From NCBI GenBank assembly GCA_903813345.2, contig CAIIXF020000007.1, positions 623,730-687,729 of the forward strand: 64,000 nucleotides of DNA. The letters are read 5' to 3'. The notes under the pieces were generated by a model. The model had not been told where the DNA came from. It saw only the letters and a list, made by a program, of their open reading frames with translations, and made no database searches. Position numbers and translations under genes: made by a program. Source of the stretch: Owenia fusiformis (lineage: Eukaryota > Annelida > Polychaeta > Sabellida > Oweniidae). Below are positions 6,767-58,735 of the stretch, in pieces (position 1 is the stretch's first letter; every line of letters starts with the position of its first letter).

Positions 6767-6838
6767 CAGCAGCTTCCCTGGCCTGTCCCCCAGCAGCTTC
6801 CCTGGCCTGTCCCCCAGCAGCTTCCCTGGCCTGTCCCC
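6767..6838. repeat. 24-bp tandem repeat, three copies
   Basis: Three identical copies of a 24-bp unit beginning CAGCAGCTTCCCTGGCCTGT. The unit is a multiple of three, so it creates open frames on both strands that I do not regard as genes. Confidence 0.9.
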
Positions 6839-7458
6839 CAGTTGTCAGGCCCATCATCGCTTTGAAATTTCATTTTCTGAGGCTTCAAATATTAGGCTTC
6901 ACTACCAAAATCATTGAATATAGCAGCGATTTGATCATCATTACCCAGTCTGAATCTAGCCCTGGCTGCCATTTTTAAATACCACAATGTCTGATTACTT
7001 CCAGATTCATATTTGTTTCGGAATAAATCAATAAGTGACCAAAATAAATTTTTTTCAATCATTTCTCTTCGCCAAATTAATTTTAAATCACAATATGCAG
7101 GCCTGTCAACTGTCCCTCAATTTGCGTATTTGTCACGCATTTGCTGAAGAATTTGAAGTCACGCCAGTTTTTTGTGCGTGACAGAAAATGTCACGCAAAA
7201 TACGCATTTTACCTGGCAATTGTCAAGCAAAAATATTTCTGTAGAAATTTTTTCGAAATATGTTTACGATACGTTAAAAATACGAACGTCGGAAAAAACC
7301 GAACGCAATTTGTTCGGATTTGTCACGCGAATCCCGTATGTGTCACGCATGTTCATTGGAAATTTTTCGTACCTATTTTTCATAATGTGGGCTTTTCGTC
7401 AGGAAAGATCTTCTCGGACTGTAATAACTAGATAACGGCAACTCCGCGGAGTAGCAAA
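6839..7458. other. Non-coding stretch with recurrent TGTCACGCA motif
   Basis: No supported gene. At 7090-7350 the string TGTCACGC or its complement recurs about six times (for example 7132, 7178, 7190, 7321 and 7341). Two overlapping open frames of 87-96 codons run through it, but neither has a recognisable domain or splice context. Confidence 0.35.
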
Positions 7459-17000: not shown

Positions 17001-17681
17001 AAAAAAAGACATGGCTTCCCTAGATCGGGAATTAGAACAAATAAACAACTAGGTAAAGTTACCCCAAATGTCAAAGTTACCCCAAATGTCAAAGTTACCC
17101 CAAATGTCAAAGTTACCCCAAATGTCAAAGTTACCCCAAATGTCAAAGTTACCCCAAATGTCAAAGTTACCCCAAATGTCAAAGTTACCCCAAATGTCAA
17201 AGTTACCCCAAATGTCAAAGTTACCCCAAATGTCAAAGTTACCCCAAATGTCAAAGTTACCCCAAATGTCAAAGTTACCCCAAATGTCAAAGTTACCCCA
17301 AATGTCAAAGTAACCCCAAATGTCAAAGTTATCCCAAATTGGTGTCAACGTTATACCCCTTCCCCCTAACTTGAAGATTTGAAGTCTTATATCTTCTCAA
17401 AATTTGATTATTTTTATTTTTTTCAAAGTAGTTATAATTATATTCAGTGCAATATCTATGAAGTAACATCATCCAAACATATGTTCCTTTCAGTGAAGGA
17501 TGGCACAGAGACTATAGTATGCGAAGAACTAGAAGAGGAAGGGGATCCAACAAACAGTGAAGATCAATCTGAAAATGAACTCCAACAATCTGGTAATAAT
17601 CCTAACATAGATGAACAGGTAGAAATAGAAGAACAGAATCACGTGGATGACAAATCTGATGCACCATCTGATAGGACCTAA
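14040..17681 (+). CDS. Unidentified acidic protein, two C-terminal exons (partial gene)
   Basis: I do not recognise this gene. Two exons are supported by splice signals and matching phase: 14040-14429 (acceptor TTTTAG, donor GTAAGA) and 17494-17681 (acceptor CCTTTCAG, ending in TAA). The first leaves one base (A) and the second begins TG, which together make an ATG codon and keep the frame. The visible product is about 190 residues: an acidic, serine-rich stretch, then a basic patch (KKTKLLKRKPTPARLPMMER), then a strongly acidic tail rich in Glu, Asp, Asn and Gln. No transmembrane segment or enzymatic motif is apparent. Upstream exons were not found with confidence; they may lie before 14040. 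The intron holds the foldback element and 18-bp minisatellite at 16703-17370, ending only about 120 bp before the last exon. Confidence 0.6.
16703..17370. mobile_element. Foldback MITE whose right arm has become a minisatellite
   Basis: The left end (GGTAGGGCAAAGGGGTGTAA) and the inverted right end (GTTAGGGGGAAGGGGTATAA) are imperfect inverted repeats. The subterminal motif GGGGTAACTTTGACAT occurs once in the left arm as GGGGTAACTTCGACA and many times in the right arm. It lies in the intron of the unidentified gene. Confidence 0.6.
17053..17340. repeat. 18-bp minisatellite, about 16 copies
   Basis: Nearly perfect tandem copies of GTTACCCCAAATGTCAAA. Only the last two units show substitutions. 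Since 18 is a multiple of three, the array is open in several frames on both strands; these frames are artefacts. Confidence 0.95.
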
Positions 17682-18058: not shown

Positions 18059-19560
18059 ATGTCCCCACCACATAGTGTGGGGCCATATTGTCGGCCTAGG
18101 CGCGTCCGTCTGTCCGTCTGTCCGTCTGTCTGTCCGTCTGTCTGTCCGTACGTCCGGCAGTTTTCTCCAAAACCGCTACAGATATCACCTTCAAATTTTC
18201 AGGGATAACTTATGAGTGCATACAGATGTGGATGAAAAAAAATTAACTCGATACCTACTTCCTGTCGGCCATTTTGAAGTCGAATGCTAAAATCCTTGTC
18301 TGCAAACTTTAAGAAAAACTGCTTCACAGTTGCTTTTAAAACTTTAACATCTTGTTCAGCTCACTTCATTCTAGATCTGATTAGGTTTTGGACCTGCTAG
18401 CTCAGTCATGTCAGCCATTTTGAATGTCTTAAGAAAAGTTAGCGCGCGATAATACTTTGTATCATATTGAATGGTGTTTTTGAGTTTTCATACTTTAACT
18501 ATTTAGTAGCTTTATAAATAATTTCAGATGTACTTTGCTGTAAAAGCCTACTTTATTGTTAACAGTAGTTATATGTGATAATTTTGTAAAAAGAAATCAG
18601 CAAAAACTCATAAGGACTTTTTTATTGTCGGCCATTTTGGATTTTTCGGTCCTAAAATCTTGTCTGTGAAGTCTTGTCTGCGCGTTTTCAGGTGAACCGT
18701 TTGGTGGATCAATTTCAAATTTTCAGGGATGATTCTTAGTATAAAAATCTAGATCTCATTAGTTTTTTGGCATTCTGGGTAAATGTCAAGGCAGCCATTT
18801 TGGATTTTCCGTCCTAAAATCTTGTCTGTAAAGTCTTGTCTACTCGTTTTCAGGTGAACTGTTTCGTAGATCAATTTCAAATTTTCAGGAATGATTCTTA
18901 GTATGAAAATCTAGAACTGATTAGTTTTTTTGCATTCTGGGTAAATGTCAAGGCAGCCATTTTGGATTTTCCGTCTTAAAATCTTGCCTGTAAAGTCTTG
19001 TCTACGCGTTTTTAGGAGAACGGTTTGATAGATCAATTTCAAATTTTCAGGGATGATTCTTTGTATGAAAATCTACATCTGATTACTTTTTTTGCATTCT
19101 GCGTAAATGTTAAGGCAGCTATTTTGGATTTTCTGTCCTAAAATCTTGTCTGTAAAGTCTTGTCTACCCGTTTTCAGGTGAACCGTTTGGTAGATCAATT
19201 TCATATTTTCAGGGATGATTCTTAGTATGAAAATCTACAAACAGATTAGTTTTTTGACATTCTTGGTAAATGTCAAGGCAGCCATTTTGGATTTTCCATC
19301 CTGAAATCTTGTCTGTAAAGTCTTGTTTACATGTTTTCTGGTTAACTGTGTGACGGATCAATTTCAAATTTTCAGGGGTGGTTCTTAGTATGAAAATCTA
19401 GAACTGACTAAATTTTTGGCATTCTGGGTAAATTTTAAGGTGGCCACTTTGGATTTTCCGTCCTCAAATTGTGTTGGTAAAGTCTTGTCTACTCATTTTC
19501 AGGATAACCATTTCACGGGATCACCACTTGGTGGGGACATTTTGTACACATTTGTGTTCT
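18059..19560 (+). repeat. Interspersed element with five internal ~163-bp units
   Basis: It starts ATGTCCCCACCACA with GTCCGTCT microsatellite, and ends TGGTGGGGACATTTTGTACA. About five internal units of ~163 bp, anchored on TTTTCAGGGATGATTCTTAG (near 18721, 18886, 19049, 19210 and 19371), each carry GGCAGCCATTTTGGATTTTC and AAATCTTGTCTGTAAAGTC. An inverted partial copy is at 58140-58735. No ORF with a recognisable domain, so non-autonomous or satellite-like. Confidence 0.75.
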
Positions 19561-32597: not shown

Positions 32598-35500
32598 ATG
32601 GCACAGCTGAAGCAAAAGTTTAAGTCCTTGCAAAACCTTATACAGAAACAGGTTAGTGGCCATATGTCATTTCAGAGTGCTAATCAATATTTTGTAAACT
32701 GAGTATGAGTTTTTCAATGATGATTCTTGAATTTCTGCCAATCAGTGATGATTTGTTCATTATTTTCGATCTGAATAAACTTATAAACAACATAGGGGAA
32801 GAACCAGTTGACAAAATATCCTGCTAGTACCTTTGCATGCGTTTGACTTCACTTCTTCGTCTTCACTCTTTCAAACTAAAATAAACCTGTGAATTCACTG
32901 CGCCAATCAGTGTTCGTCGGCCAAATTTGACCGATGTTCTATATATGGTCATTCCTTCTGACGTCATCGTTGAGCCCAGAATTGACCAATGACATGTGCA
33001 TATTTATTAGAACGCATTTGGCGTGTTTCTTCAAGCTCGCTGATTGGTGGAAGAAAGGTCACCACGTAGGTCAGAAGTGATTTACTACCCAAACTGTCAC
33101 CGGTACCTGCCGTGGGGGCGGGGCTACTAAACTGTAATATGGTCTCTACTAGGCAGATTGTAGTTTTAAACTAGACTCTGCATGCAGGGTAGCTAGTACA
33201 GTTTGGGCAATAGAGAATTCAAAGTGTCTGGAACCTTAAATTTTAAGGCCCTTTAGCCATAAGGCTATATAGCAAAGAATATAGTATTTTGGCTAGAGGG
33301 CCTTAGTGTTTATAATCAGTGTTTATATTGTTTTTAACGATGCATGTACATGTATTTACAGCAGTCTCTTATAGTTTCTCGACCGAAAATGTCACTTAAA
33401 AAATATTACACATATTAAATATATGCTTGTATTTGCAAAATTTTCAGAGTTGTTCTTGCCAAACCGCCCTGGTCTAGTGGTTAATGCATTTGCCAAACAT
33501 GATTAATTCTATTTTTATAGAGATTCTTTGGCTTTATTGATAAGATATTATCTATGCTTACTGGAATAAATCATGTGGATTGGTTTTTGGTTTTGCTTGA
33601 GTCTCAAGCTTACAGCATAAAGGGAATCCCGTTTGAAGGTGGCAAATAGTCGGGCAAAAAGTATGATAAACCCTTTCACAACGATAGGCTCCATAGGCTC
33701 GGAGCAGAAACAGGAAACAAAAATCTTGACCCTAGACATCGAAACTTGCCAGAGAATACTGAGAGCAGAAACCAAGAACTAAGGAAGCAAAGTGTCATAC
33801 TTAATGGAGAAGCATCGTCATGGAAGGACGTCATTTCTGGAATCCCACAGGGGACAGTCCTGGGTCCTGTGATGTTTCTCATCTTTGTAAATGATATCCT
33901 CCAGTATGTTAACAGCCCTCTGATAATGTTTGCGGATGACACAAAGTTATATCGGGAAGTGAACAACACAGATGATTGTAATGAGCTCCAAGAAGATATT
34001 CAATCCTTAATGAATTGGACAAATGACTGGCAATTACAATTCAACAGCAAAAAGTGTAAGGTCTTAAGAATTGGTAGATCTTCTCCAGATTACAGTTATA
34101 CCATGGGTGATACAATTCTTCAGGAATCTGAATCTGAGTGTGAAAAAGACTTGGGACTAATGGTGTCGAGGGACCTAAAGAACAATACACACATACAAAT
34201 GGTGGTAAAAAAGGCCAACCAAATCCTCGGTCTGATGGTCACCATATTTAATCCAGGACATTGAGGCTGTTGAAGCTGTTCAAAGAAGGGCAACCAGATG
34301 CATACCAGGATTCCAAGACAAAGAATACTCTCAAAGACTTAAGGATCTAAAGCTACCAACACTTGTGTTCAGGCCCCTGAGTGGTGATGTGATTGAAACT
34401 TGGAAAATCCTAAATGAACAACATGACCTCCCAATTAGTAATATACTACCCCTCTCACACAACCTAGGAAGGACCCGAGGCAACAATAAGAGGATTCTGA
34501 AGAATCAAAGCAGATTAATTCTGAGAAGAGGATTCTTTACCCAAAGGGTTGTTAACACTTAGAACTCCCTCCCTCAAGAAGTAGTGGAAGCTGACAATCT
34601 AAACCACTTTAAAAACAAGCTAGACGGACTATGGAGTGACCACCCAGCCAAGTACAACTACAGAACCCTGAAGTAGATCCAAGTCAATCATTTGGGTTCA
34701 ATGCTAAACTTTATGCTCATTTTTACTCTCTTAAGAACGGCCACAGGTCAATACGACCTAAGCAGTGATAACTATAACTATATGGAGCCCTATTATGTAA
34801 TACCTTTCAGTACAGCTTCTTTTGGCACCATTATTTCTATTTATATATATCAATGAAATTACAATATCTCCAGTTCTATTCAGTATTTTTACATCAAATT
34901 TTCCCATAGGGAAAACTCATGCGATCCATTGCTCTCAGCTTAATTTTGGTCACCCATAATGGATATCTTTAAACCCCTGAAGGAATTGCTTATTTTTTGT
35001 TATAGCCGGATTCACAAAAGGCAACAAAGTCTCCTGAGTTAGAAGTGAATGTCACATCAGCTGAGTTAACAGCAGAAGCTGTCGTAGTAAAGGTATGTAG
35101 TAATGTACCAGAACATAGAGTTTTGTTTCATATAGATTAAAAATACCATTCTCCTTTCACATATTTATTTTTGTCTGTTAGTCTGTCAACATTAGTGGCA
35201 TGTTTTAAAACCTCTGTTGATACTCAATAGGATTCCTGTTTTAAGTTATTGTGGATGATCATGGTGGTTGGTGTGCAGTAAGTGTTCAGCATTCAGTTTT
35301 GTGACAAATGGCAGGTGACATTTTGCATGTTAATGCCTTTTTTTGTAGTTTGGAGAGCAATAAGAAATAATTTTTGTTTCTGACTTCTAAAATGTAAATC
35401 ATTTCTCAAAATCAAAACCTAATACTCTCCTTACTCCAAATATCTTCCTCTGCAGTTTTTGATGATACAAATCATTGAGAATTGATACATTCTGAATATG

Positions 35501-38500
35501 TTACTGCTAGTATGCAATGTTATTTAAGTGTTAAGTGTAGTCTTATAGTCACACTGACTCTGAATCTTATCTTATTGTACCTCTCATATCTTGTAAAACA
35601 ATACTCAGGATGAGATAATTCTATCTTGAAACAATCCTTGGAGTGTAAATGTATTGAACATAAGTTAACCTTCTTGTCGTGAACACCGTGAGAAAAATAG
35701 AGAGCATGTTGAAAGTTTTTATGTATTTTTTCGTTATCATTAAAGCATGGTTTACACACGCAATTTACTTAGTTTAATATGAACTTATGAAGTGATTTAC
35801 TTAGTTTAATATGAACTCTGAAGTGATTTACTTAGTTAAATATGAACTTATGAAGTGATAGGTACTGTTCAATGTTATTTATTACAGATATTTTGTCTTG
35901 AATTCTGAAGGTCATAGTATTCTCATTTATTTAAAGATTTCATGAATTGATATTAATGGTAAAATTATTTATTATAGGGAAAATTCATGAAGTTGTCCTG
36001 TATTGCTATTGCTATGCTCCAAAAATATGATCCTTAGATTCCATATGTGTTGTACTCTTTGGGAAGAAGCCCCAATATAAATCCCTCAGTTACATGTTAA
36101 TAACTTAAAGTCTGTTATATTCTTCAGGAAAAAGCCCCTGTGTATGATCCCCAGGTTGACCAGGAGATACTTGACAGCATAGAGAAAGATTACTTTGATA
36201 GCCAACAATTTGATGCTAGTCTCTTTGAATTAGAGGTAACAGTTTTTTTACAGTGGGATTCCTTTAATGTGAAAATCACCACACCTTTCTTCTGGGTAAT
36301 TTAGTTTGACCTTTAAAAATTGGGTCAAAAGGGTAAAAAATGTCAGGAAATTTTGAAACTGTTGATGTGTCGGGGAAACTATAGGGAATTTTGTTTTTAA
36401 AAATGTGTAGGAACACTGCCTAGGAGTCAGCTCCACAAATCTTTATCAAGTTCTGAACTTTGAACAAGTTCTGAGTATTTAGGAAAAGGAATCTGACAGA
36501 GATATTTGAGCTTTATGTACCATGTCAAATGAACTTTTCAGAAACTTCCAGAGGTAGGAGAGTCCTTGGAACTAGGGCAGATAGACAGTGACAGGCAGAG
36601 GTTGAGAGGACAGCTGCAAGCTGTAAGTGGAAACTTGTTTGCTTTTCAAAGACCACCAACAAAAATAACTCAATATCAAAAATAAATAAAAATGCCAGGG
36701 CTTACTTATTTTGAAGCAAAACTTTGACTATGGGATCATATTTTTATGTATAAAATAGAATTTAGACAGTGCAGTCTAGAGCATCTTACTGTTCTTACAC
36801 TTTCAATATATTTTTACATTTCCAAATGAAATTGTAGGTTTCCAAGAAAGTGTCTGATTTAGTGCTCCAGAACCATTCAGCATTTGTAGATGAGTTGCAT
36901 CGTGTTATAGACCTACAGGAGTCATTACAAACTGCAACAGTGGTCTGCAAGAATGGCAGAAGGTAATATAGCAGATGGATGGGACTTACATAATCTGTGT
37001 TACATCGTTTACAATGGGCTACTTACCTCAGATAACTTTGTCAAATATTTCAGAATTTTGACATAAATCATGCAAATGTTCTGTATTTGGAATCATATTT
37101 TTTGCTTTTGTAGACAATTGTCCAGTGCCAAGGAAAGATTCACTACTGCAAGCTTGGGTTTGCTTGCGAATTACAAGAAAAGACAAAAGTTGGTTGGTCT
37201 CCTCAATTCTATGAGCACAATAAAAACATTGGTGGGTGCATAGATAAATTAACAAATGTACTAGAAAAATGTATTTGTGATACATCATACAACAATGCAC
37301 TTCATAATTATTGGTTCACTTCATACAATAATGTTTTTATAACAGTGTGCTCGTTATACATGTTGTAAATTGATTAAGAGTTGACTGAACTGTAGACTAA
37401 TCTACTTGGGTGTTTTATGTTCTAGCAAAGGACAGACATTAGACTTAGGGAAATGCTGGAAGAGGAAGACTACCCAGGAGCTATTCAACTCTGCCTGGAG
37501 TGCCAGAAGGCTGCTAGTACATTCAGGCACTATAAATGTATCAGGTTAGACATAACAGATTGAATTTGCTCAGTTTCATTGGTTCTTGCTCATTTCACTA
37601 TGAGCCTATATGTGGAGGTTCTCAAATCAGCAGTCACATTCAAATTAGGGGCCAGTATTTATGGAACAACCTCTTCACAAGCTTAATGATAAAATAGATT
37701 GATTGCATTGTTTAAATTGCTTCATTACATATATCTGACATCACAGGCATCCATTTCCTTGAGTAACTTATATAAAAGGCATGAAAATACACCATTTAAA
37801 TGTTAAATATGATGGCACTCAAACTAGACATTGTCAATCAATTACTTATGTTGTTCTTTAGTGAGCTGAGCTCCAAGCTAGACATTGTCAATCAATTATT
37901 TATGTTGTGCTTTATTGAGCTGAGCTCCAAGCTAGACATTGTCAATCAATTACTTATGTTGTTCTTTAGTGAGCTGAGCTCCAAGCTAGACATTGTCAAT
38001 CAATTATTTATGTTGTGCTTTATTGAGCTGAGCTCCAAGCTAGACATTGTCAATCAATTACTTATGTTGTGCTTTATTGAGCTGAGCTCCAAGCTAGACA
38101 TTGTCAATCAATTACTTATGTTGTTCTTTAGTGAGCTGAGCTCTAAGCTAGACATTGTCAATCAATTATTTATGTTGTGCTTTAGTGAGCTGAGCTCCAA
38201 GCTAGACATTGTCAATCAATTACTTATGTTGTGCTTTAGTGAGCTGAGCTCCAAGCTAGACATTGTCAATCAATTACTTATTTTGTGCTTTATTGAGCTG
38301 AGCTCCAAGCTAGACATTGTCAATCAATTACTTATGTTGTGCTTTACTGAGCTGAGCTCCAAGCTAGACATTGTCAATCAATTACTTATGTTGTGCTTTA
38401 GTGAGCTGAGCTCCAAGCTAGACATTGTCAATCAATTACTTATGTTGTGCTTTAGTGAGCTGAGCTCCAAGCTAGACATTGTCAATCAATTACCTATGTT

Positions 38501-41500
38501 GTGCTTTATTGAGCTGAGCTCCAAGCTAGACATTTTCAATCAATTACTTATTTTGTGCTTTATTGAGCTGAGCTCCAAGCTAGACATTGTCAATCAATTA
38601 CTTATGTTGTGCTTTATTGAGCTGAGCTCCAAGCTAGACATTGTCAATCAATTACTTATGTTGTGCTTTAGTGAGCTGAGCTCCAAGCTAGACATTGTCA
38701 ATCAATTACCTATGTTGTGCTTTATTGAGCTGAGCTCCAAGCTAGACATTGTCAATCAATTACTTATGTTGTTCTTTAGTGAGCTGAGCTCCAAGCTAGA
38801 CATTGTCAATCAATTACTTATGTTGTGCTTTATTGAGCTGAGCTCCAAGCTAGACATTGTCAATCAATTACTTATGTTGTGCTTTATTGAGCTGAGCTCC
38901 AAGCTAGACATTGTCAATCAATTACTTATGTTGTGCTTTAGTGAGCTGAGCTCCAAGCTACAAGATACACTGGAGATGATAGAGGAACAACTAGATGTTG
39001 CCTTATCAAAGACTTGTGGCAACTTTGACATGAAGTATTACGACAAAGTGCAGACTGCTTATAGGTTACTGGGGAAAACACAGGTTTGTGGATTCTATTA
39101 AAATAGTTGCTCAAAATAATTTGACTCACTCCTGATGTAAAGTAAGTAGAAAGCACATCTATGGTTTTAGTACTTTAAGATAACAATGTACTCACAGTAT
39201 TTTTTATATTGTTAGCTGCTTACGATCCAACTTTGGATTATCCCATAAATTAATCATTGGTTTTCAAGTTAAATCATGATAACCATCGTTGATATCTTAA
39301 AATTATGTTTTTAGACTGCTATGGACCAGTTACACATGCACTTCACCAGTGCAGTGCACAATACAGCATTCACCATTGTGCTTGGCTATGTGGAGCTAAC
39401 TGCTGCAACATCAGGGAGCAACTTCCAGAAACGACAGTATAATGATCTTTGTAAAGTGAGTTTAAGATTATGATTAATCCAGCATTAATTCCATGCATAT
39501 GATTCTCAATGTAAATATTCTTTTATTAAACGAGTATCATAGTTTTGTAATCAAATAACAATAACATAAATTATGAGTAAATGTTAACTTGCATAAATCT
39601 TTTTCAAACAGTAATGAATAATTCTAGAAGCGTTTGTGTCCACTGAATTACATAAAATTTGAAAGTGTAGTTATTGTTTCCAAATTCATTGTATTGCAGA
39701 ATGTTACGCCAGAGACATTCACTTCCTGTTTGATAGACCTGTGCAAGGCATTATGGGAAGTGATGAAGAGCTATCACCAGACGATGGAGTGGCATGAACA
39801 AAAAGACAAGTCATTAGAAGAGTCGGGTATGAGTATAAGATTTCAATCGCTTTATTCCAATTCTGAAAGAACTAACCTAATTTCTTGAATTATCTTTCTA
39901 TTTTATACAGAGATAGGACAAACTTGCTGCTTTGCACTTAAGTCATGATTGTCTTAAAGAGATTTACCTACTCCTGGATAAAAATGTGAATCTTTATTTT
40001 CTAGGCTCTGGGAGCACCAATGTAGATGCACATTTTACAAGGCGCTATGTGAAGCAGAAATTGGAGCATGGTTTATCCAGGATCTGGGGAGATGTCCAGC
40101 AGAAAGTGAAGACGTACATCCTCAGTACAGATCTCTCCTATTTCAAATTTGATGAGTTTATTGATGTTCTAGACATCATCAATAGGTAGGTGTTAGGGAC
40201 CTGCTCAATATTTTGATGTTGACCTAAAATATAATCTTAATCAGTGTAAATCGAAAAATTGATTTTAGTCAAATTGAAAATCATTTCTATTTAGCAATCA
40301 ATGTAGGCTCACCTCTTCCCCCTTCCAATTCAATTTATTACATTTGTAAGGGCACATGGATGAATTAACTTTTTCCCATCAGGAGGCATACATGACATAA
40401 TGTGATAAGTTAGCTCAATTGCTTGGAAATTATATCCACAAGTAATTTTAAAAAGAATCTTAGACCAGTCTCATTAGGATTATCATCTGAAGAGAAGTTT
40501 CCATATCACAGAAACAAATGGCATGTACAGGGTGATCCAGAAGTAACGTCAAAGACATTGTAATTTCAAAAGTATTCATCAGATCTTCATGAAATTTGGT
40601 ATACATGTACCCACAACATTTCTGAGTTACCATCTCAAAGATTGGAATTCAATCATTTCATTGGTTGAAATTATGGTTGCTATAGTAACCCGATATCGCG
40701 TAACCCGGGGCAAATTGAAGAGAAACCATAACGTTTTTGTGAATTTCTCTAATTTAAAAAGTCAGTAACATTTGAAAATGTTCATTGTTTGTTTTCTATG
40801 ATTTTTATATTTGTTGCCATGGTAACAAATATGTAATAGTTGTGATGTCACAATAGGCATTCATAAAAAGCTTTCAATTTCTTTGAATTGCTTCCATCAT
40901 CCATGACAAATACTAACATGACCAAGGACACGAACCCACCCAATTCAAGATGGCGCCAAGTCAGAGTAAAATAGAGCAAAGAACAAACATTAAGTTCTGT
41001 GTAAAGTTGGGGAAAGGTGTAAAAGAGACTATAAGACAGATAAAGAAGGCATATGGTAAAGCTGCCATTGCTGAGAGAAACATTTACAGGTGGTTTAACA
41101 AGTATTCCAGTGGATATGATGAAGTGGTAGACAAGCAGCGAGGAGGCAGGCCAGTGTCGTCATTCGATGATCAAACCATCAAAGCAATTGAAGCTGATGT
41201 TATGGACAATAGGCAAATTTCTATCAGAGAATTGGCTGAAAAACACGATCTGAGCTATGGGACTGTGCAACGGATACTGACAAAGAACTGTCTGTTAAAG
41301 AAGGTGTCTGCTAAATGGGTGCCGCATGACTTGACACAGGAGCAGAAAGACCGGCGTGTTAAGGCTTCAAGGGACTTTCTTGCAAAATATCGGAGAGATG
41401 GAGATGACTTTCTTAACAAGATCATTACGAGTGACGAATCATTGCTATCATTCTACATCCCAGAGACCACGCAACAAAGTTCATCGTGGAAACATGACAA

Positions 41501-44500
41501 CTCCCCAACACCAACCAAGCCTAAAATAGTACCAGGAATTCCACAAAAGAAACAAATGGTTGTGACATTCTTTGACATTAGAGGAATGGTGTTAACCCAT
41601 TTTGTTCCCATTGGCCAGAGAATTAATGCCGTTTACATTGCAAAGGTAAGATATCATTTGTTCTAATAATACATCATACTGTGAATTTTATTTTTAAATT
41701 AAAGTATTTAAATGTTGTTCACTGTCAATATAATTATAACTCCATGGCCATGATTCAAATCCAAATCCAATCAATGAAACAACTGGTTTAACAACCATTA
41801 AACATTTGTTTTTCAGGTTCTGAAGCGTGATCTTCAACGTTCCCTGAGGAAAAAGCGTCCCGGACATCTGCAGCAGTTTATCTTGCATTGGGACAATGCC
41901 CCTACGCACACTGCAATCCTGACCAGCAACACAGTCCAAACACTTGGATTTCAACAACTTGAACATGCCCCTTATTCACCTGATCTCGCCCCCAGTGACT
42001 TTTATTTGTATGGGGAACTAAAAAGAAACCTTAGTGGAAATAATTTTCAATCCTGTGAGGAATTGAAAAATGCCGTAGTACTAGCCCTACAAGGAATGAG
42101 TTCTAATGGATTTAATTCTGTGTTCAAGGAATGGGTATCCAGACATGAGAAATGTGTTGCAAATGGTGGCAATTATGTAGAATGAACTATTATTAGTAAC
42201 TGTGCAATAGTATGATTTATATTGTTGTGAAATAAAATGTTGAGGATATAACAATTTCAGATCTTGTTGATATTTTGAGATTACGCATTACACGTTAAGT
42301 AATTTGCCCCGGGTTACGCGATATCGGGTTACTATAGCAACCATAATTTCAACCAATGAAATGATTGAATTCCAATCTTTGAGATGGTAACTCAGAAATG
42401 TTGTGGGTACATGTATACCAAATTTCATGAAGATCTGATGAATACTTTTGAAATTACAACATCTTTGACGTTACTTCTGGATCACCCTGTATGTAACTTC
42501 ACACATATTTCCCTGAAATCCGTAAGTATGATTGATAAATTGTATCAGACAAAATAAGGGGACTGACAAGGCGTACTGTGTTTTTAGATTAATTATTAAT
42601 TATTTAATTGATTTCTACAGGTTGATTATGATTGGAGAGGAATTCTGTGGCAGTAAATCTGAAGGTCTCCAAGACTCAATTAGGAAACAGAGCGTCAATT
42701 ACTTCCGCAATTATCACCGTGCCAGAATGGACGAATTGAAGATGTTCTTGGAGAATGAAGCCTGGCAGTTGTGTCCAGTTAAAGCCAATTTTAGCATCAT
42801 GCAATTACAGGTATGTTCATGTACTTGACAGGCTGTTCAATAAGTACCAAGAAAATATCATCAAGCACTTCATGATTATTTACATGAAGATTTTAAAAAT
42901 AAATATTATTTGTTACTTATTGATGTTTTTTGTTTTTATCGTATCTTCACTTTCAAGACTTGTCTACAGATTTTCAGCCAAACCATTTGAGGGATTCATC
43001 TGAAATTTTCAGGGATGTTTCTACATATCAACGTCAAGAACTGATTGATTTTTGGGCATTCTGGGTAAATTTTAAGGTGGCCATTTTGGATTTTCCGTCC
43101 TAAAATCTTCACTTTCAAGACTTGTCTACAGGTTTCCAGCCAAACCGTTCAAATTTTTACATATGTTACACAGTGATAAGTTCTAGAGCTGATTAACTTT
43201 TCTGCGGCCATCTTGCTTTCTTGGTCAACAAGACCTCAATGCTGTGTTTTAGGTACGATATTGTTCACGTCTGTGCCTTGTTTTTTATATACTTATTGAT
43301 GTTATGTGTCTTGAAAAATTTTTGTATGAGATATTCATTATTAATATTAAAACTAGAAAAAAGTCATCAAAACTGAATTTCCCATTCATCTATCACAAGC
43401 AAAAAAGCATAATTTTATATCTGGTTAGTGTATCATGAATTTCATTTGTAGGAGTTCAAGTTTTTACGAAGTCATGCACAACAACAGAGAAATATTATAG
43501 CTACCCCTACGCAATCACCTGAACATACTGTACCAACCAACCGTCCAAACTACGGCTTTTTCACAAAGTTTGACAACTCCAGTCCATTTGATCTCCCGGC
43601 TCAGGAGGATGAGGATGAGGAGAAAGAGGATGTCATGGCAACCAATGGGGTGAGTCTTTTAGATGTAGCCATGGCAACAAATGGAGTGAATCATTTAGTT
43701 ATGGCAATCAATTGGAGGATAAATTGAGAAATGAATGAAAAATTGACTATCATATGATATTTTTTATTTTTCTCAGACCGTGCATTTTGATAATCAAGAA
43801 ATTGATTTTTCAGTACATGGAGGATCGTCAACTGTCAGTAGATAGCGAATCAGATGAAGACATTCCAGAGGAATTAAAACAGGACTTTGTGGACGAACAG
43901 ACAGGAGAGCTTCCTGTTAAACGTCCTACTAAACTACCCAAGAGTCACTCTGGCAGTTTGAAAAGACAAACCAAGCTAGGTCCTGTGTTAACCAATACAA
44001 CTTTAAATGTGATACGTTTAATAGGTGAGATGCTCATCAATTGAGATAATTATTTCTTGCTTATATTTCATTTCAAAATTACTTCATGTCGCTCTTTCTA
44101 AGAATTCCAATCATTGACAGATGTTCCAACCCTTCTAATAATATTCTGTATTGGCTCTAAGCCTTTTCACTTAATTTCTTGTTTATGTCATTCTTCTTCA
44201 CTTCATTTTTCATTTAAAGATGATTTGTTTGTTCATTTGCAGGTAAATATGCTCAGATGATGAGTGTGTTGAAGCCAATAGCCTTTGATGTGATTATATG
44301 TATGTCCCAGATCTTCGACTATTATTTATATACAGTGAGTATCATTCATAAATAAGTACAAACAATATGTTGCAATATGTTCAAAACAAAGCTATTGCAA
44401 GAATAATCAGGCTCTGTGATTATGCCTTATGGATTACTTTTGATTTCTAATTTAACTTATTTTATAATTCTTGAGAAATATATTGAGAGCTGCTTTTTAT

Positions 44501-47500
44501 ACATGCTCCATAAAAATGCAATAATTAGAGTGAATGGATGAAAAATTCTATTTTTCAGATATACAGCTTCTTTGGGATAGACCTTGGGGATGTGAATGAG
44601 TTGTCACTCAGCAACAAACTGAGAACAACATTGAAGAGAATCAAAGATAATCTTATTTATGAAGAACAACAGGTCACCCCTACCACACCAGGAGTCCCCA
44701 CAGTGCCAACAGCTGAAGAGAAAAAGGTATTTTGAATGTCTTAATTGAATTTTGCCCAGTGCGGTAGCGACAGTATTAAAATCCATACAATAGATATGTA
44801 TTGAAATCAGTTGTCACACAATATTTATTATCATTATTACATATATTACAGTGCTTAATGTGGATTGGTCCATAATATTGGTTGATATTGATAGGTGTTT
44901 TCTGTGTTTTCCAACTGTTGTCACTCATGATATTAATAACATTTCAGATATATGATGTAGCAATATATTATGAGGTTATATAATGGTTGATTCCGTATAT
45001 CGTGTTTATACTCAAGTGAGTATATGATATAGATGTATTCACGAGTGACTGAAGGGAACAAATGAGTATATCATATACTCACGAGAGTTAATAACGATAT
45101 ACAGAATCAACCATTATATGATCTTATCATCCCACCCTAATCTTTAATCAATAAAAGGTTAATCTAAATTCTGCAGTTGTATATCAAGTCGAGGAGTTGT
45201 ATACGCTACCCAGGAGTTGCATATCGTTCTCAAGAGTTGTATACGATGAATGTTGATTTTATATCGCAGTTATACAATGCTATTATACAATCATATAATG
45301 CTCTTAGGGTGGGATAAGATTAGTTCTCCTCATCCTGTTCTTGATGTAGTCTTGATGTAGTTTTGGATGGTTCTCTAAAAAGTACAAGACGGTATAGTAA
45401 ACAAACTATATGGTAATTTCCTACATATATTATCTTTTTGTTGCAACAGGACAAATTTGGCCAGCCTTATCTATCTGGAATGGTTGACCTTAGTGTAAGA
45501 GAGTCCCTGTATGGGTTAGCTGCTAGGGTTGTAGCTGCTGAGTCACTGTAAGTATGCCACAATTGTATATCAATTAAGTCAAGGAGTTGAACTAGGGCTA
45601 GAGAGTTAGAGTGTTATATGAATAAGAGCCATTCTAAATCAGTAATATGTAACTTCAAACATACTTCATACATTCAATTATTTCAAAATGTATACTTTTA
45701 TATGCCTGGGTTTTGTTTATTTTACAGTATTTCTTGTTATACTTGTAAATGTATTAATATTTAGTTCAACATGTTCTTGTCACTTTTTCAGTGTGTTCCT
45801 GGCTGAACAGTTTGAGTACCTACAGCCTACTTTAGATAATATGATTCCACAAGCCAAGAAAGCATTCCTTCAACAATTCTACTCTCAAGTAAGTGTGTTT
45901 GCCATCAGTCTTTTTGGGTTCATTTACTTATTTCAAGTTCATCAAAATTTAGTTTCTATTAGAGTTGGTGAATGTTTCTTATCTTGTCCATGTATCTATA
46001 CTCAATATTGCTTTTTGTAAATTGTAAGAAAAATAAATAAGAATCCAATGATTATTTTAAACTATCCCTACTTATCTAGGTAATGTATGTAAATATACGA
46101 AATGCATGCATAAACATATTTTGAAAACCCTAGTGTTGACTTATATTGTGTGACTTGATTTCATGTTTTAGACTGTTACAACAGCTGTAGAAATCAGAAA
46201 GCCAGTGTATCGTACCGTGGCTGCCAAATCAATAGACTATGAGAACCTCTTCAATCTGATGGCCACCACAGTCAAGTGGGACATTAAAGATATCATGTCA
46301 CAACACAGCAGTTATGTAGATAGGTTACTTCAGGTGAGGAGATATGGATAACTTCCTTCAATGATCTCATGTAGTTTGGACCATAAATAATTGAGTAGTC
46401 GATTTTCTATCACCATTTCCAAACCTTGGTGGTTTGAAAGCCCATAATTTCCTATATTGTCCAGATACATATCCCCTAAAATTTCTATATTTTACATTTT
46501 GTATACTGTCATCCACTGAAGTATGGCCTCTTGAAATTTTTTATGAGTGGTCCTTATGGGTCAGTCAAAAGTATGTGTATCAATATTTCAGGAATTCCAT
46601 GCATTCAAAAGTATGTGCATCAATATTTCAGGAATTCCATTCATTCAACAGTATGTGTATCAATATTTCAGGAATTCCATGCATTCAACAGTAGGCTGCA
46701 GGAAGTGAGTCGGAGGGTGCCAATACCAAAAGTTGTGGAACACATTCTCTGGGAATACTGTATAAGGCTATCCAATAGAACATTTGTAGAGGGGTAAGAT
46801 TTAAGGTATTAAATTGGATTAGTATGTTGGACATGTTCTGAAATAAAAATTGTTCAATTTACTTGTAATCAATTGAATGTACTCAATCTAATGAATAACT
46901 GGTAAACAGATATGTGACCTGCCCTATTTCAATTTGAACAATTTCAGGTTGCTTTAACATGTTTAATCAGCTTCTAACCCATGAACTTATATATTTCTTT
47001 AGGTACGCTAGTGCTAAGAAATGCACTAATGAGGGGAGAGCTTTGATGCAGCTTGACTTCCAACAGTTTCTCATGAAGTTAGAAAAACTCACTGACCTCC
47101 GCCCAATTCCCGACCGTGAGTATGTAGAGGCGTACATAAAGGCATATTACCTACCTGAAGCCCAGTTGGAGCTCTGGGTCAAAGACCATCGGGTAATTAA
47201 CAAATCATTAAAATTTGACACTTGAAAGTTTTTTTAAAAACATTTGTATATGACAATGAAATGGTGAAAATTCTTGTCAACCTCAGAGTCAACTCAACCC
47301 TGTAAAACTCAACCGCATTAATTTCTTACAATATTTTTGAATCATTCACTAGGTTGAGTTGACTTGGGGTTGAGATGACCTGGAATTTTAAAAAAGATTA
47401 AGTTTGTCCATATTGGACAAATTAATTGAACAAGATTAGGTTTAACAAGACAAACGAATTCGCCATTTAGTTCATTCCACTTTCCAAAAGTTTTAAAGTT

Positions 47501-49915: not shown

Positions 49916-52900
49916 CTAAGTTCCAATAATGTTCTACATTGTGTTTCCTAAACTGTTCTCTAGCAAATGTTTCTGTTGGACATTGTTTAAAGATTATTTC
50001 TCCAAATGCTCGGTCTTTTGTTGTACCCTGGAAGAGAAATTGAAAGAAATGTGATTTTGGAAATGAGAAAATAAGAAGTCATTCTGAATGATTTGTTAAG
50101 AAATGGTGACAGGAAAAAAGGCCATTTAAATGAACACAATTAAAAATCATTTCTTTGGAACGTTGATTTGATTAATCTTGATAAAACTGGCTACAAATCC
50201 ATATTGTTGATGTTAATATGACGAGAGTTCTAATTGGCTAATTTATCTGGTTTGAGTCAATTATTAACTGAAAATGAATTACATGTATGCGAAAATGTCA
50301 TGTTGGTCGGAAGTCCAAAATGGAAAATAACGTGGAATAAGACATATATCTAGAACAGGCACATAGAATACAAAACCACAAAATCAAAATGTTATGAGCA
50401 AAGAGTCATTGAGTTTTTCTATTAATAATGTGTATGAAACTTACCTCCCAGACCAGTTTGCACTCATTAGGCTCCCCTTCATCACCAGACTCATCATCTG
50501 TAACACACAAAACAAAATGTTATCAAGGATACACTCTGACATACAAAACAAGATAGTAGAAAAGGGATACATAAAATACATGAAATTAAACAAGCAGGTA
50601 ACACACAAGTAATCAACAATACAATCAGTAACAAACCTTAATGACATTATACTGCCTGCCTAATTTAAGAAACTAAGTAGTTAATCATCTGTTCATCTGA
50701 TATGAAACTCACTGCCATGCTTTCAACTCTTACATAATGCAAAAATAGTATTATAACTGGAGTGACCATATTTGAAAATATAATTTATCACTATTACTTG
50801 GTTGAGAATTTATTCAATATTCAATTGTAGTGCTAATACGAAGTACTTACCATCATCTTTAGAAGCTTTTATGGTGTCTTCAGCCCACTTTATCCTATGA
50901 AGCATTAACCTGTTGAATTTTTTCTGTTGTTTAGGGCCTCCTTCTACGACTACAACATTACAGTCTCTGTATAGAACCACAATTCCAGTCATGTAGAGTT
51001 GTTTGGCATTCGCCTCCACTTTAAACTTCTTGGAGGGATTTTTAAATTCTTTTATTCTGAAATACAAAATGAGGTTGACATGTGTGATCCAGTTAAGTAG
51101 CATACATCATGTTTAACAAATGAAATCCTGATTTTCATCTTACTAGTTTTTAAATAGTATTTAGATGTATGAGCAGTTATATCAGGAAATTCATTGCAAT
51201 CAAAACAAGGCATTAACATTAAATGTCACCATATGCCATTCGTACTCTCCTTGGCGTTGATGTAAACCATTAACATCATGGTTAACATACCTATATATTG
51301 CCACATGAACACCATTTGTTGTGTCTTCCTTCAGTTTCTTGGCTTTCTTATCTTTACGCTGATCAGGTGTGAGTTTACGTGCAGCATTGGCTTCCTCATG
51401 ACCCCTGAAACCAAATTCATTTCCAATATGAAGCATATATTTTCATGTACATGTATAAACAAGAACATCCTTGGGGACCTATAAAGCCTTGATAACCTCG
51501 GTCAGACATGTTTATTAAAGGAATGAGATATATTGGCATTCAAAGTACATAAGGATAATTACACTATAGTAGATAGAACATAATACACTCAAGAGGTGTT
51601 GCTCACCTTCATAGGTGGTGAAGAACTACAATAGAAAAGGCCCATGTTTATGCTGCAACACCAACTTACCTTTGTCTCTTGGCCATCTGGGCTCTGACAT
51701 GAGCTTCTATCTTAGTGGGGTCTTGTACAGCCTCCGTACCCAGCACCCGCATCAGGTTAGCCATCTTCACTGGAATAGCATGACAAGACTGAATAAATTG
51801 TCCAAACATAAATTGGTAAAATAGAGACAAGATTTAGATACAAAATAAACAAATTAATCAGGAGGTCAGGAGAGACTTCAGACAATTTTATGATAACTTC
51901 AATGCATTTATGAAACTGGGTAATCTTACATGTTCTGTGTTCATCTTTGTTTCTTACTTTCAATCAATTCTTTATCTTTATTTGATTTAAAGTCATATAC
52001 TTCCTATATTTCTCCCTACCTTTAGGTTCTGGTGCAGGCATGAGACCAAGACGTATCTTTTCAGTTACTTCCTTCTGTGCCTCCTCTCTATTCTGTCTCC
52101 GCAACTTCTTGCGTTCTTTCTTGGTTAACATCACCTTGATCTCAACGGACTTCTGGTCAACTACAAACAATACACATCATAGGCATGTAGTGCATAGGTG
52201 GTTCATAGGATAATCACTAATCATATCAGAAAAATTGTGCAATGTTAATTTAAACACAAGGCACTTTAACATGCAAATAGTTACCACATGCCATTTGTTA
52301 CAGATGTTGAACTTCGAATATGTAACCACTTGCGCTTTCATTTTGTTAACATTTCACATGGTCTGATATATTGGAACATCTCAGATTTTTGCAAGTTCAA
52401 GGTTGAGGAACAAGAATTTGAGAGGAAGAGTTTGATTGAGAGAATAGCAATATTAATACCTGGGGGCTTCATCTGTATAGGATGTTCCACATAATGTGTG
52501 ACTCCCTTGATCTTCTCCTGATAGCCCTTCTCTCCAACAATGTCATAGCTGCAAATATAACATATGAACAGATTATACAAAATGCTTGTAATGTTTAAAT
52601 TTAGTTATCACAGAGAAGAATCTTGAATTTGAAATACTGTTTTTTATTTAAGTAGACCAGATACACAATATCAAAGCACTGTAACAATTTACAGTACAAT
52701 GGTAAATCTTATACATGTACTTCAAAATTATTAAACAAGTGCTTAATGTGAGGTTGAGAGGGGAGGTAAAATTGTTCATCAGGGCTGGGAAATTTCTACA
52801 TTATTCTAAAGACTGTGACATAAAAAAGTATCTGATATAACGTACTTGTCAACTTGAAGTATCACATTGTCCCACCACTCTATGTTTGGGATCTCACCCT

Positions 52901-55900
52901 CTTCCTGGAACATTCAAACCATTAGTTTAGATTCAAATGTGTTGGTGACATTCATAACATAAGATTCAAATGTGCAAGGAACAGCAGGGGAGTAGATTTC
53001 TAATTACATAGAGATTTCTTCTTTAAAATTACATGTACTAGGAATATGTATTCAATGCCAAATTCTCTCATAATTAAAAACATGTGCCATGTACAATTTC
53101 TTTGAAAAGTTAATCAATGAACTTGTTTCTTTGCTAGATAGTCTGATGATGAGCCAATGCCTAGCTTTAAAGTCCATCATCTGTGTACTGTAGCCCGCAT
53201 ACTGTGGCTTAGTAGTTTGCACATCTCAAATACTTACAATTGCCTTCTTTGGTTGGGTTGAGATAAGACGTGTCATAGTTGCAATACCAGTTTTCTTGGC
53301 AGCTTGAGCGATCTCATTCTGTAGCTTGTCTAGTTGAGCCTGAAGAAACATAATAGGATATTTATAGCAGGGAAGTACTAATACAGCTTCATTACTTTCT
53401 CATGCATCTATCTATGGTCCGACATCGACCTATCTAACACTTACTTGCAAACAAGTAGTGAAGTAATCATTCAACTGAAACTTCTATGTTACACAATGGC
53501 AACTCTGATATACACAGTAAAACCTGTAAAGTGAAACATGTCTCTGTAAGTGGAACACCCCGTAAATGGAACACTTTTCAGTCATACACTTTTTATGTAC
53601 CAGAGTCCAGAGGTGTTCCACTTAAAGAGATTTGATACTTGTACTTGATTTGGTAATATATTTTGGATCCTGTCTGTTAAAGATGTGTCACCTGGACGCC
53701 GTAAGAAACAATACAGGTAATTTATCCCAATAGGGATATAATGTGTTTACAGAAGAGAATTGATTACCTTTGTACGCAGTCTGGCAGCAATTTCTTGAAA
53801 CTTGCCCTGGTCGTGGAACTGAAATGATCTCCTCTGTCTGACTGCTCCCTTGTCACTGGATAAATAAGAAACAAATCTTAAATTAAACTTAAGGAAACTA
53901 AAATGTGTTTGCAAATGCAAGACTGGGGGGATCTTCTATACTCATGAATATTTTATTTGAGAAGTGAAATTCATTAACATTGACTGATTAGGATTTTGCA
54001 CTCTGGTTGAGTTTTTAAATAATAGTTTTGTTTTGAAATAAGATTCTCATGTAATCTATCTCAGCTAAGTCTATTTTTCTTTACTCCTCTACCTAAACCA
54101 TACTTATGTCACTGGAAAATCTTACCCAACTCTAGGATCAAAGAATTTAGATTCACTAATTTCTTCAGGAGGTCTAGAAATAACAGTTTTGAATTCTTCT
54201 CTCTTCTTCGCTCGAATGTTAGCCTGAAAATACAAGGAAATAAATTGTAAAACTCAGAGAGATGTTTTTTGAATATTTGATTTTATGTGGAACAAATAAG
54301 CCTCACAAATTCAATTTCTATTTATTGGTGCCTACTTGCTCTTTGAAAAACATCCCAAGTAAAATAATTTTCTTGCCTTTTTCAAGATCCATAAACTTTT
54401 TTCATTCAGATATATCTTTTTACCTTTAAAAGTAAAATTAATAGTACTAAGAGCCTGGTCACCATAGCAAATCCCACTTAACGAACAGCTAACCTGTTTT
54501 GACAGAATTGAGAATGTCTTTTAATATGTACAATTACTTGTAGTATAATGCTGTTATACTTGTACACTAGCCATATAGTTTATTTTCCTCTATGGAAATC
54601 CTAAAGATGGGTTCTATTATTCCTCATACCTTAAGTGTTGGCATATGATGAGTAAGTTGTACAGTCTCCCCAGTGTTTACATCTATGGTACGTCCCATCT
54701 CATCCAAAATTAGAGGGGTTGGTCTAAAACACAATAACCAACAATGATTTATGAAATAAATAACAAACTTTTATAACAAAACCCTTATTAAATATTTGAA
54801 CATTGACTATTACATTGATACTTGTGCATGAAACAATCACGGTGCTATCAATGGCTACTTTTAGAGATTTCCTCCAAGATATTGCTACAGTTATGTAATC
54901 AAAGTTAATAGTTTTTACTTACTGTCCAGGTATGATAGCTTCAGCAGGGGATTGTCTAAAAAAAAAAAAAAAACATAAAATGGTAATGCAGCATAATATT
55001 CAAAAAATATTAAAACTCAAAAATTACTTTTATAATTTCAGGTTCAATTTCTCATGCCTAACTATAACCACTTTTTGAACCTAAGATTGTGATTAATCAT
55101 TTTACATTGAGCTAATGAGCATTTAAACTTACTGTAGTGGTGGAGGTTTGATTGGAGATACCCCAACTCCTATGCCTGCATTAGCCAACTGTGCTTGGAT
55201 CCTTGCTTGCAGATCTGCTGCCTTCTTAGCTTTATCCATAGCATCAGACATAAGCTTTTGGGACTGTGGAGGGGGAGGAGGCCTGGCTGGAGGTGCATCC
55301 TTTAAAAGAGAAATATTGAGATATCAAAAATGTCAACAGATAATGAGCCTAAAATCAGGCCGTGTCATATGAGTATGAGTATAAAATGAAAAATATACAG
55401 GTCGAAAGGATCAGATGCCATGACAAGGGTCATACATGTTAAAAAGAATAGCTAGGCCAAATCTCAACTTAATGGCTCTGGGCTGGACTGTCACATGACT
55501 TCCCAAATCTGTTTCAAAATAATAATATTGCGCAGGGTATTTAGACACCATGTAGAAATTTAAGAATTTGGGAAATAAAATAACCAACAAGAAGGATTTA
55601 TCATTAAATTATAAAAATGAAAGAAATTACAAAATTCAAAAAGTGATATAGATAACATATTTATACTTACAGGTATATTAAGTTGTGCCTTTCTCTCCTT
55701 GATCATTCGCTGTGCACTTGCCATCATATCTTTAATCTGACACATAAGAAATTTATTGAGAATTATTCCATAAGAAAAATTTGTGATAAAATATGTGAGG
55801 GTTTTTATATAAAATCTTCAATCAGAATGCTTGTTTCTGAAAGTGTATAAAATGATTATTTTGATGCCAAGATTGAATACGTTTTGAGAGAATCTTAACA

Positions 55901-57311
55901 TAAAATACAGTGTACCACACATTGTACCATGTATATTTCTGAGAATGAAGACAGTGCAAAAATTACTTTTTGAATGTTCCCAAAATTTTTAGAAATAATT
56001 CAAACTGCATTTCAAAAATATTATTTCAAATTGTAAGTCAAAATCTTACTTTATCTGCAGTGAGCTGTCCTGGACTTGGTTGACCTGGCTCAGGGACAAC
56101 AACATTTGTTGGAGGCTTTGTCTCTTCAAATCTCTTAACTTTCTTACTCTTTGAGACATCTTCTTCTGTGTTCTCATCATCTCTGCTCCTTTCCTGAGAG
56201 ATAAACACAATTTTATTTTGGAATAGATAAACAGAGAAATCAGGGAGGATTGGCAGCCATTATTCAAACTCTATATTCTTTTAGCTGGCGTGGAACAATT
56301 TAGTAAAAAGTATTCTATAAGATTCTCTTTAGACCAAGAATACCGTTGGTAGATGAACATTACAAATATTATGGTGATATTCAAGTTTCCTTGGCAGTTC
56401 TAGTTTTCAAATAAGGAGTAATGTTGTTACCAAATTGATCTATGCTGGGCAATGGAGTATCAAGTTAGAATAATGGCTACCAATCCTCTTTGCACGCAGA
56501 AATGAAGAATACATCATAGGGATTGGAAACAGAAATAATTGTATTATTGGCTTATCAGCTCTAATAAACATAGTACACATAGTGATCTCCGCAGGATTTT
56601 TTCTCAAGTGGGTGCAAAATTCCATTTTAACAATTTGGTCAAAATATGCCAATTTTTCATGATTTTTCTTATTTACAGTGGGTGCAAATGGATTTGCAGG
56701 TGGGTGCAGGACTATTTACAAATGCTGGGGAGATCACTGATACGTGTACTCTAAAAAGGTGTTTTAATATTATGGACAAACAGAGAATGTTATGGTTAAA
56801 TACACAATTAAGATATTTCTAAAATAGAAAATACACCAATGTTCATACCTTGTCTCTACGTTTTCTGCTACTACTGCTACTACTACTGCTGCTACTGTGG
56901 CTCCTGTGCCGACTGTTACTGTCTACTACATCAAATAACTTCTCAACAAACTTAGATGCCTGGCGATCATCGAGATAGGAGGAGAGCTTTGCTAAAACAA
57001 TAAATAATTATATCAAAAACTAAATTTGTAGTCAAGATTTACCCAATCATATAGCCTGTTAAAAGACTCCAATGTTGACGACCATAGAAAAATGTTTTTT
57101 TCAGACTACAATACCAAAAATAACAAACTAAATATTTGAGATACTTGGGATTTTTAAATCACTTACAAATTGCCTTTCTTCTGTCATATCCTTTGTCTAT
57201 ACAGTTGATGGAGGCTGTGACAAGTGTAGGCTCACTGAACCCTAAGAACTTCTGTACAGCTTTCTCTACGGCATACTTGAGATCATCTCTCTCTTTGTCA
57301 CGCTTTGACAT
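49875..57311 (-). CDS. PRPF3: PRPF3, U4/U6 small nuclear ribonucleoprotein Prp3
   Basis: Complete gene, 18 coding exons in transcript order: 57311-57167, 56991-56849, 56193-56050, 55736-55671, 55299-55133, 54955-54923, 54723-54630, 54223-54126, 53855-53768, 53339-53238, 52904-52846, 52548-52460, 52160-52020, 51769-51670, 51404-51291, 51056-50851, 50497-50445, 50027-49875. All junctions are GT-AG and phases close: 664 residues (human about 683). Prp3 binds the U4/U6 snRNA duplex in the tri-snRNP needed for spliceosome assembly. Seen: an N-terminal PWI-like domain ([15 protein letters not shown]) followed by a serine run; the proline-rich segment before [16 protein letters not shown]; the core PRP3 region with IPNIEWWD and [11 protein letters not shown]...[10 protein letters not shown]; and the C-terminal RNA-binding domain with VVVVEGGPK...[12 protein letters not shown] and EHYWNLAYS. 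The start gives [10 protein letters not shown], aligned with the family's N-terminus. The PWI tripeptide itself is YAV here. Tail to tail with VPS50. Confidence 0.97.
53518..53645. repeat. Imperfect hairpin in PRPF3 intron 9
   Basis: GTAAGTGGAACACC (53547-53560) pairs imperfectly with AGGTGTTCCACTTAAAGAGA (53610-53629), and CCTGTAAAGTGAAACATGTC lies just upstream. Possible small MITE. Confidence 0.4.
56581..56739 (-). mobile_element. MITE family C, copy 2 (inverted) in PRPF3 intron 2
   Basis: Reverse of 20777-20976: AGTGATCTCC at the left, AATGCTGGGGAGATCACTG at the right, with CAAGTGGGTGCAAAAT, GGTCAAAATATGCCAA and CAGGTGGGTGCAGG inside. Confidence 0.75.
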
Positions 57312-58139: not shown

Positions 58140-58735
58140 TTCAAACAAGAACACAAATGTATACAAAATGTCCCCACCAATGGGTGATCCCGTCAAATGG
58201 TTATCCTGAAAATGAGTAAACAAGACTTTACAGACAAAATTTTAGGATGGAAAATCTAAAATGGCTGCCTTGTCATTTACCTAGAATGCTAAAAAACTAA
58301 TCATATCTAGATTTTCATACTAAGAATCATCCCTGAAAATTTGAAATTGATCTACCGAACGGTTCACCTAAAAAACGCGTAGACAAGACTTTACAGGCAA
58401 GGTTTTAAGATGGAAAATCCAGAATGGCTGCCTTGACATTTATCTAGAATGCCAAAAAACTAATCAGATCAAGATTTTCATACTAACAATCATCCCTGAA
58501 AATTTGAAATTGATCTACCGAACGGTTCACCTGGAAATGCGTAGACAAGACTTTACAGACAAGATTTGAGGATGGAAAATCTAAAATGGCTGCCTTGACA
58601 TTTACCCAGAATGCCAAAAAACTAGTCAGATCTAGATTTTCATATTATGAATCATCCCTTAAAATTTGAAATTGATCTACCAAATGGTTCACCTGAAAAC
58701 ACGTAGACAAGACTTTACAGACAAGATTTTAAATG
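58140..58735 (-). repeat. Inverted partial copy of the 18059-19560 element
   Basis: Begins with the complement of that element's right end (CAAAATGTCCCCACCAATGG) and carries three to four ~165-bp units with GAATCATCCCTGAAAATTTG and GACAAGACTTTACAGACAAG. It ends near GGCCGACAATAAAAAAAGTG, matching the other element's left part. Confidence 0.75.

Follow-up and report, generated by a model that had tools for sequence, protein, structure and literature searches.

Minisatellite-like duplications of intron-exon boundaries, termed 'mirages', have been described in amphioxus in the genes for Adh3, the globins BflGb6 and BflGb9, troponin C and PGBD5 (PMC3087553; PMC3902484). In BflGb6, the repeat comprises an intron's 3' end and the beginning of the exon that follows (PMC3087553), and among mirage units in general the splice signals are kept in many, not in all (PMC3087553; PMC3902484). 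Reverse transcription PCR and Adh3 data suggest that mirages leave regular splicing undisturbed (PMC3087553; PMC3902484), and boundary minisatellites have been proposed as a route of intron gain in the amphioxus globins (PMC3087553). A stretch of 64,000 nucleotides from the annelid Owenia fusiformis (contig CAIIXF020000007.1, positions 623,730 to 687,729; hereafter the window) contains most of the VPS50 gene, encoding syndetin, in which 21 tandem copies of a 54-bp unit span a 3' splice site. This array is a long new case of a known, rarely described kind of repeat. It is likely to be a mirage-like minisatellite that spans the boundary and is spliced mainly at the acceptor nearest to the exon.

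Related arrangements occur in human genes. The 844ins68 duplication of CBS copies the junction of intron 7 and exon 8; splicing takes the more distal site and eliminates the upstream copy (PMC2630376). That report speaks of a 'donor', although the title of its reference b37 concerns 3' splice site selection. 844ins68 is one 68-bp duplication, whereas VPS50 carries a 21-copy array. Minisatellites over an exon-intron junction, as in VPS50, are also found in F7, where intron 7 has 37-bp repeats with donor sites of which normally the most upstream alone is used (PMC6627357), and in the 31-bp variable number tandem repeat of CBS (c.1444_1467+7, 16-21 units; PMC2630376). Both of these lie on the donor (5') side, whereas the VPS50 unit is without repeated 5' splice sites (best score 1.9). 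In human segmental-duplication genes, internal tandem repeats at boundaries can yield alternative transcripts (PMC2812944); like the VPS50 array, these are minisatellite units at boundaries, but they average four 30-bp units and lie in recently duplicated paralogs. No paper on the VPS50 array was found in the open-licence library searched, by title and abstract start, a search that papers matching fewer terms would escape.

The VPS50 model comprises 20 exons on the plus strand between 36128 and 47714, with GT donors and AG acceptors, and covers most of the gene. Its reading frame of 926 residues has no internal stops and matches Pfam Vps54_N over residues 15-309 (E 7.6e-101) and Syndetin_C over residues 687-920 (E 2.3e-93). 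The 5' exons are left out of the model, in which the exon following the array, numbered 8 in the original prediction, is the sixth. The GC content of the window is 34%. The features around the array are as follows.

37426..37544, plus strand: VPS50 exon upstream of the array, ending ..TGT ATC AG in phase 2 (gene model)
37545..38941, plus strand: VPS50 intron of 1397 bp, its 3' part formed by the 54-bp array (gene model and boundary scan)
37826..38959, plus strand: array of 21 x 54 bp, the unit being the intron's last 36 nt (AGACATTG..TTTAG) plus the exon's first 18 nt
38942..39083, plus strand: 142-nt VPS50 exon following the array, with the acceptor of unit 21 as its own (gene model)

The original prediction of a 21-copy, 54-bp minisatellite at a VPS50 acceptor was confirmed by Tandem Repeats Finder (37820-38960, period 54, 21.1 copies, 96% matches, no indels, score 2107), by splitting of the units and by the Pfam-backed gene model. 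The 21 units run head to tail from 37826 at a spacing of exactly 54 throughout, with no indels. The base after the 18 exonic nt of the unit is again A, so that 19 exonic bases are matched; this match, predicted to be exact in every unit, is so in 20 of 21, unit 6 having one C to T within it. The motif TTTAG had likewise been attributed to each unit and is present in ten only. G follows TTTA in units 1, 3, 6, 7, 8, 11, 12, 16, 18 and 21, T in ten units and C in unit 10 alone, which agrees with the predicted division into ten units with AG and eleven that lack it at the same base. Seven columns of the unit are variable, including the last base of TTTAG. Ten distinct sequences occur among the 21 units, interspersed, and unit 2 is identical to unit 1, and unit 4 to unit 3. 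An exact scan of IMG/VR found no match to 22 bases from the unit junction. RNA folding of 247 nt (the last four units and the exon start) gave a z-score of -2.39, with 2 of 200 shuffles equally stable; tandem repeats pair mutually, so no functional conclusion follows from it.

The diversity of the units bears on an artefact of assembly, in which the copy number is wrong or the expansion false. The array is known from a single assembled sequence, and an amphioxus mirage is reported to have been misassembled in a draft genome (PMC3087553), but ten distinct, interspersed unit sequences are no simple block copy, and an artefact is the least probable of the explanations weighed here.

In several respects, the VPS50 repeats resemble amphioxus mirages. 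Each unit holds an intron end and an exon start, with 36 + 18 nt in the 21 units described above and 27 + 13 nt in the three units, starting at 46565, of a second, 40-bp array in the same gene. AG is present in 10 of 21 units of the first and in all three of the second, and acceptor and donor boundaries are both affected in amphioxus and in VPS50. The length of 54 bp lies within the range of 10-72 bp reported for amphioxus Adh3. The differences lie in number, edges and frame. VPS50 has 21 units, whereas the two BflGb6 haplotypes carry six and three units, each of 150-160 bp; the edge units of BflGb6 are diverged, whereas units 1 and 21 of VPS50 are common types no more diverged than the rest; and the VPS50 unit is in frame and open, a property that the available excerpts on amphioxus do not report.

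Acceptor strength was scored with a position weight matrix (PWM) trained on 33 VPS50 and PRPF3 acceptors, with both array acceptors left out. PRPF3 (U4/U6 small nuclear ribonucleoprotein Prp3) neighbours VPS50 on the minus strand at about 50851-57300; its model has 16 exons in an open frame, the first and last ends of the gene lying outside it. The ten AG acceptors of the array score 7.7-8.6, compared with 1.2-15.5 for the 33 real sites (leave-one-out). Unit 21, the last copy, probably still supplies the working splice site, at 38942. Exons in the two models measure 33-211 nt (35 exons), whereas splicing to the nearest competing AG (unit 18) would give an exon of 304 nt and to the first unit one of 1222 nt. 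Exon size might thus select the acceptor, and because 38942 gives an exon of normal size it would be expected in most transcripts. The best donor-like site in the unit, TTA/GTGAGC, reaches 1.9, whereas the 35 real donors all score higher (leave-one-out 2.6-12.2), and internal exons within the array were set aside for want of donors (1.9 versus the lowest real score of 2.6).

Several observations weigh against preferential use of the last acceptor. The unit 21 acceptor, at 7.7, is tied for the lowest score of the ten, and unit 21 shares its entire 54-base sequence with four upstream units (8, 11, 12 and 16), so that local signals cannot choose among them. The PWM is also coarse: in a version built from 18 acceptors, 11 of 334 intronic decoy AGs equalled or exceeded the score of the authentic site. 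In human genes, boundary tandem repeats often yield alternative transcripts (PMC2812944), and use of the most upstream site in the donor-side array of F7 intron 7 (PMC6627357) implies that order, not proximity to the exon, could rule the choice. Taken to its end, the latter rule would make the whole array from unit 1 a constitutive exon, with syndetin always longer by 360 residues. The unit 1 acceptor at 37862 scores 8.0 against 7.7 for the authentic one, and the array is open throughout; however, an exon of 1222 nt compares with 33-211 nt in the two models, and seven of the eight substitutions distinguishing the units alter residues, including L to P, which makes this reading very improbable. 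Whichever site is used, the array tests how a 3' splice site is chosen, as a natural experiment in which ten acceptors of like strength differ mainly in position and five belong to units that match at all 54 bases.

Two familiar categories of splice site were considered and rejected. Tandem acceptors of the NAGNAG type offer alternatives a few nt apart, whereas the TTTAG acceptors of VPS50 are 54-216 nt apart. Recursive splicing sites juxtapose an acceptor and a donor as AG/GT, whereas the VPS50 unit reads TTTAG/TGAGC, in which GT overlaps the G of the acceptor instead of following it.

The array had been predicted to be free of stops in the frame of its exon, and reading from the boundary position of any of the 21 units is indeed open to the natural stop. 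The alternative starts are as follows.

37862, 37970, 38132, 38186, 38240, 38402, 38456, 38672 and 38780, plus strand: nine upstream AG exon starts, in TTTAG units

Taken from the exon outwards, these nine choices would add 54, 90, 162, 180, 234, 252, 270, 324 or 360 residues. The predicted gain of n x 18 residues is right as to multiples of 18, although an intact AG is available for nine lengths and not for every n. Such a series could serve as an isoform generator, in which ten interchangeable acceptors would lengthen syndetin by 54 to 360 residues in Vps54_N through a longer helix. All 21 units are open and in frame, the ten acceptors have like scores and the step of 18 residues equals five helical turns. 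AlphaFold also modelled a segment of three units and the exon as a single helix over residues 2-96 of 101 (mean predicted local distance difference test score 90.3, predicted template modelling score 0.52), but from a single sequence and without a control. The insertion point (after residue 183-184) falls inside the Vps54_N match, which spans the whole profile without an insertion; a search with the first 278 modelled VPS50 residues found no solved-structure chain at E up to 0.001. The 40-bp array in the same gene would break the frame, and the unit variants, as detailed below, show no excess of synonymous change or of openness. An isoform generator is therefore quite unlikely. The isoform potential of the original prediction stands as geometry (acceptors of like strength, in frame and open), while use or retention of the upstream acceptors is unsupported.

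A more specific version treats the array as a length dial. An alpha-helix has 3.6 residues per turn, so that 18 residues make exactly five turns and a helix would be lengthened without a change of phase. The nine upstream acceptors would then lengthen one helix of the Vps54_N region in multiples of 18 residues, tether length would differ between individuals or tissues, and the lost G, which belongs both to the acceptor AG and to the donor-like GTGAGC, would set the permitted lengths. This proposal is highly unlikely. If upstream sites were used, the length of a protein would be set by a minisatellite.

The open frame itself is uninformative for function, as openness is cheap. Among simulated acceptor duplications of in-frame length at the 19 VPS50 acceptors, both array acceptors included, 1205 of 2394 were open (lengths nested and not independent), and with the one-in-three length factor applied the chance that a duplication is in frame and open is about 0.17. 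Of the 162 possible single changes in the unit, 7 create a stop, and zero stops among the eight distinct substitutions has a P of 0.70 without constraint. One of the eight is synonymous, against 1.6 expected. The unit substitutions thus give no sign of constraint at the protein level, eight changes having low power to detect it, and the openness of the array is best read as incidental, inherited from the founding unit.

Two explanations had been offered for the loss of AG, namely silencing of cryptic acceptors and the spread of two unit types. It looks like the latter. Units with and without AG are interspersed, with 13 runs against 11.5 expected, and the variants T25, C21 and T8 are found solely on the T36 background; together, interspersion and shared variants fit two unit types mixed by unequal exchange. 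T20 occurs on both T36 and G36 and needs exchange or recurrence. The suggested enrichment of AG-lacking units at particular positions was checked through the same run count, which gave no clustering, and positional silencing is not borne out.

A purged array, in which past use of upstream acceptors did harm and selection spread the AG-lacking unit type as a silencer, would account for loss of the same base in 11 of 21 units. That one AG base has changed in two ways (P 0.033, post hoc) allows some slight scope for selection, although TTTAC may be derived from TTTAT. Both units adjoining the authentic acceptor lack AG (P 0.29), yet the array as a whole has no positional pattern. GTGAGC, the unit's best donor-like site, begins with the G that is lost. 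Nine upstream AGs are still present, and the 40-bp array retains all three of its own. Further, AG-lacking units keep a GAG 4 nt on, the use of which would lead to a stop after residue 184, though it scores very low (PWM -4.2 to -9.9 over all units). A purged array is thus quite unlikely.

The 54-bp array is not the only duplication at a VPS50 splice boundary. Among the 38 splice boundaries that the 19 modelled introns provide, three carry local duplications (shuffle P < 0.02), whereas none of the 30 PRPF3 boundaries is spanned by one (score of at least 18); the score cut-off applied to VPS50 gave the same three. The other two are as follows.

46565..46693, plus strand: 40-bp x 3.2 array, comprising the intron's last 27 nt and the first 13 nt of exon 46672-46793 (Tandem Repeats Finder)
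43625..43708, plus strand: degenerate 36-bp tandem duplication spanning the donor site of the VPS50 exon that ends at 43649 (boundary scan)

The 40-bp array has three intact TTTCAG acceptors, at 46592, 46632 and 46672; splicing at the first would truncate the protein after residue 824, and at the second after residue 806. Its period is not a multiple of three and yet all AGs are kept, so that an in-frame length is no rule here; since these AGs persist although their use would break the frame, choice of the exon-nearest acceptor is probably normal. The duplication at donor 43649 has a P of 0.005 (0 of 200 shuffles as good), and the copied donor scores -0.8. The difference between VPS50 and PRPF3 implies that the duplication process recurred in VPS50 regardless of frame, and the three cases suggest that splice boundaries can repeatedly seed minisatellites.

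Enrichment at boundaries as such is suggestive only. VPS50 has five duplication clusters, three on boundaries and two off them (42950-42978 and 43111-43139), with a circular-shift P of 0.19, and Tandem Repeats Finder reports weak off-boundary arrays at 45192-45245 and 47352-47383. Given chances of straddling a boundary of 0.18, 0.13 and 0.12 for founders of 54, 40 and 36 bp, three boundary hits look unusual, in a comparison that is post hoc and in which exon-internal duplications would be purged by selection.

Short, imperfect repeats border each of the acceptor arrays, CAAACTA and CAAGCTA for the 54-bp array and TCAAAAGTA and TCAACAGTA for the 40-bp array, as expected of what slippage or microhomology repair would leave. 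We infer that the first 54-bp duplicate, comprising the end of the intron including its AG and the beginning of the exon, arose by slippage or repair between the intronic CAAACTA and the exonic CAAGCTA. Unequal exchange may then have expanded this unit to 21 copies of two main types (AG and AT), interspersed, and the upstream exon would be joined mostly to the last acceptor, 38942, with the remaining array removed as intron.

A mariner-like element also lies inside a VPS50 intron, at 40526-42491. It has TA at both ends and 191-bp terminal inverted repeats that match at 189 of 191 positions; its transposase frame is split in two, and the GT..AG stretch between the parts (41646-41816) may be an intron. 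Upstream of the modelled VPS50 exons, a reverse transcriptase fragment is found at 33650-34264 (RVT_1, E 5.9e-14).

The window holds other repeats as well. A 28-base piece of a window satellite had no exact match in IMG/VR. An 18-bp unit is repeated 15.8 times at 17055-17339, with copies 98% alike and free of stops in several frames. A satellite-like repeat of 162 bp forms two arrays (18631-19503 and 58205-58731), apparently in opposite orientation as judged by eye. Finally, a GC-rich array of 3.4 copies of a 24-bp unit at 6760-6841 is possibly coding on the minus strand.

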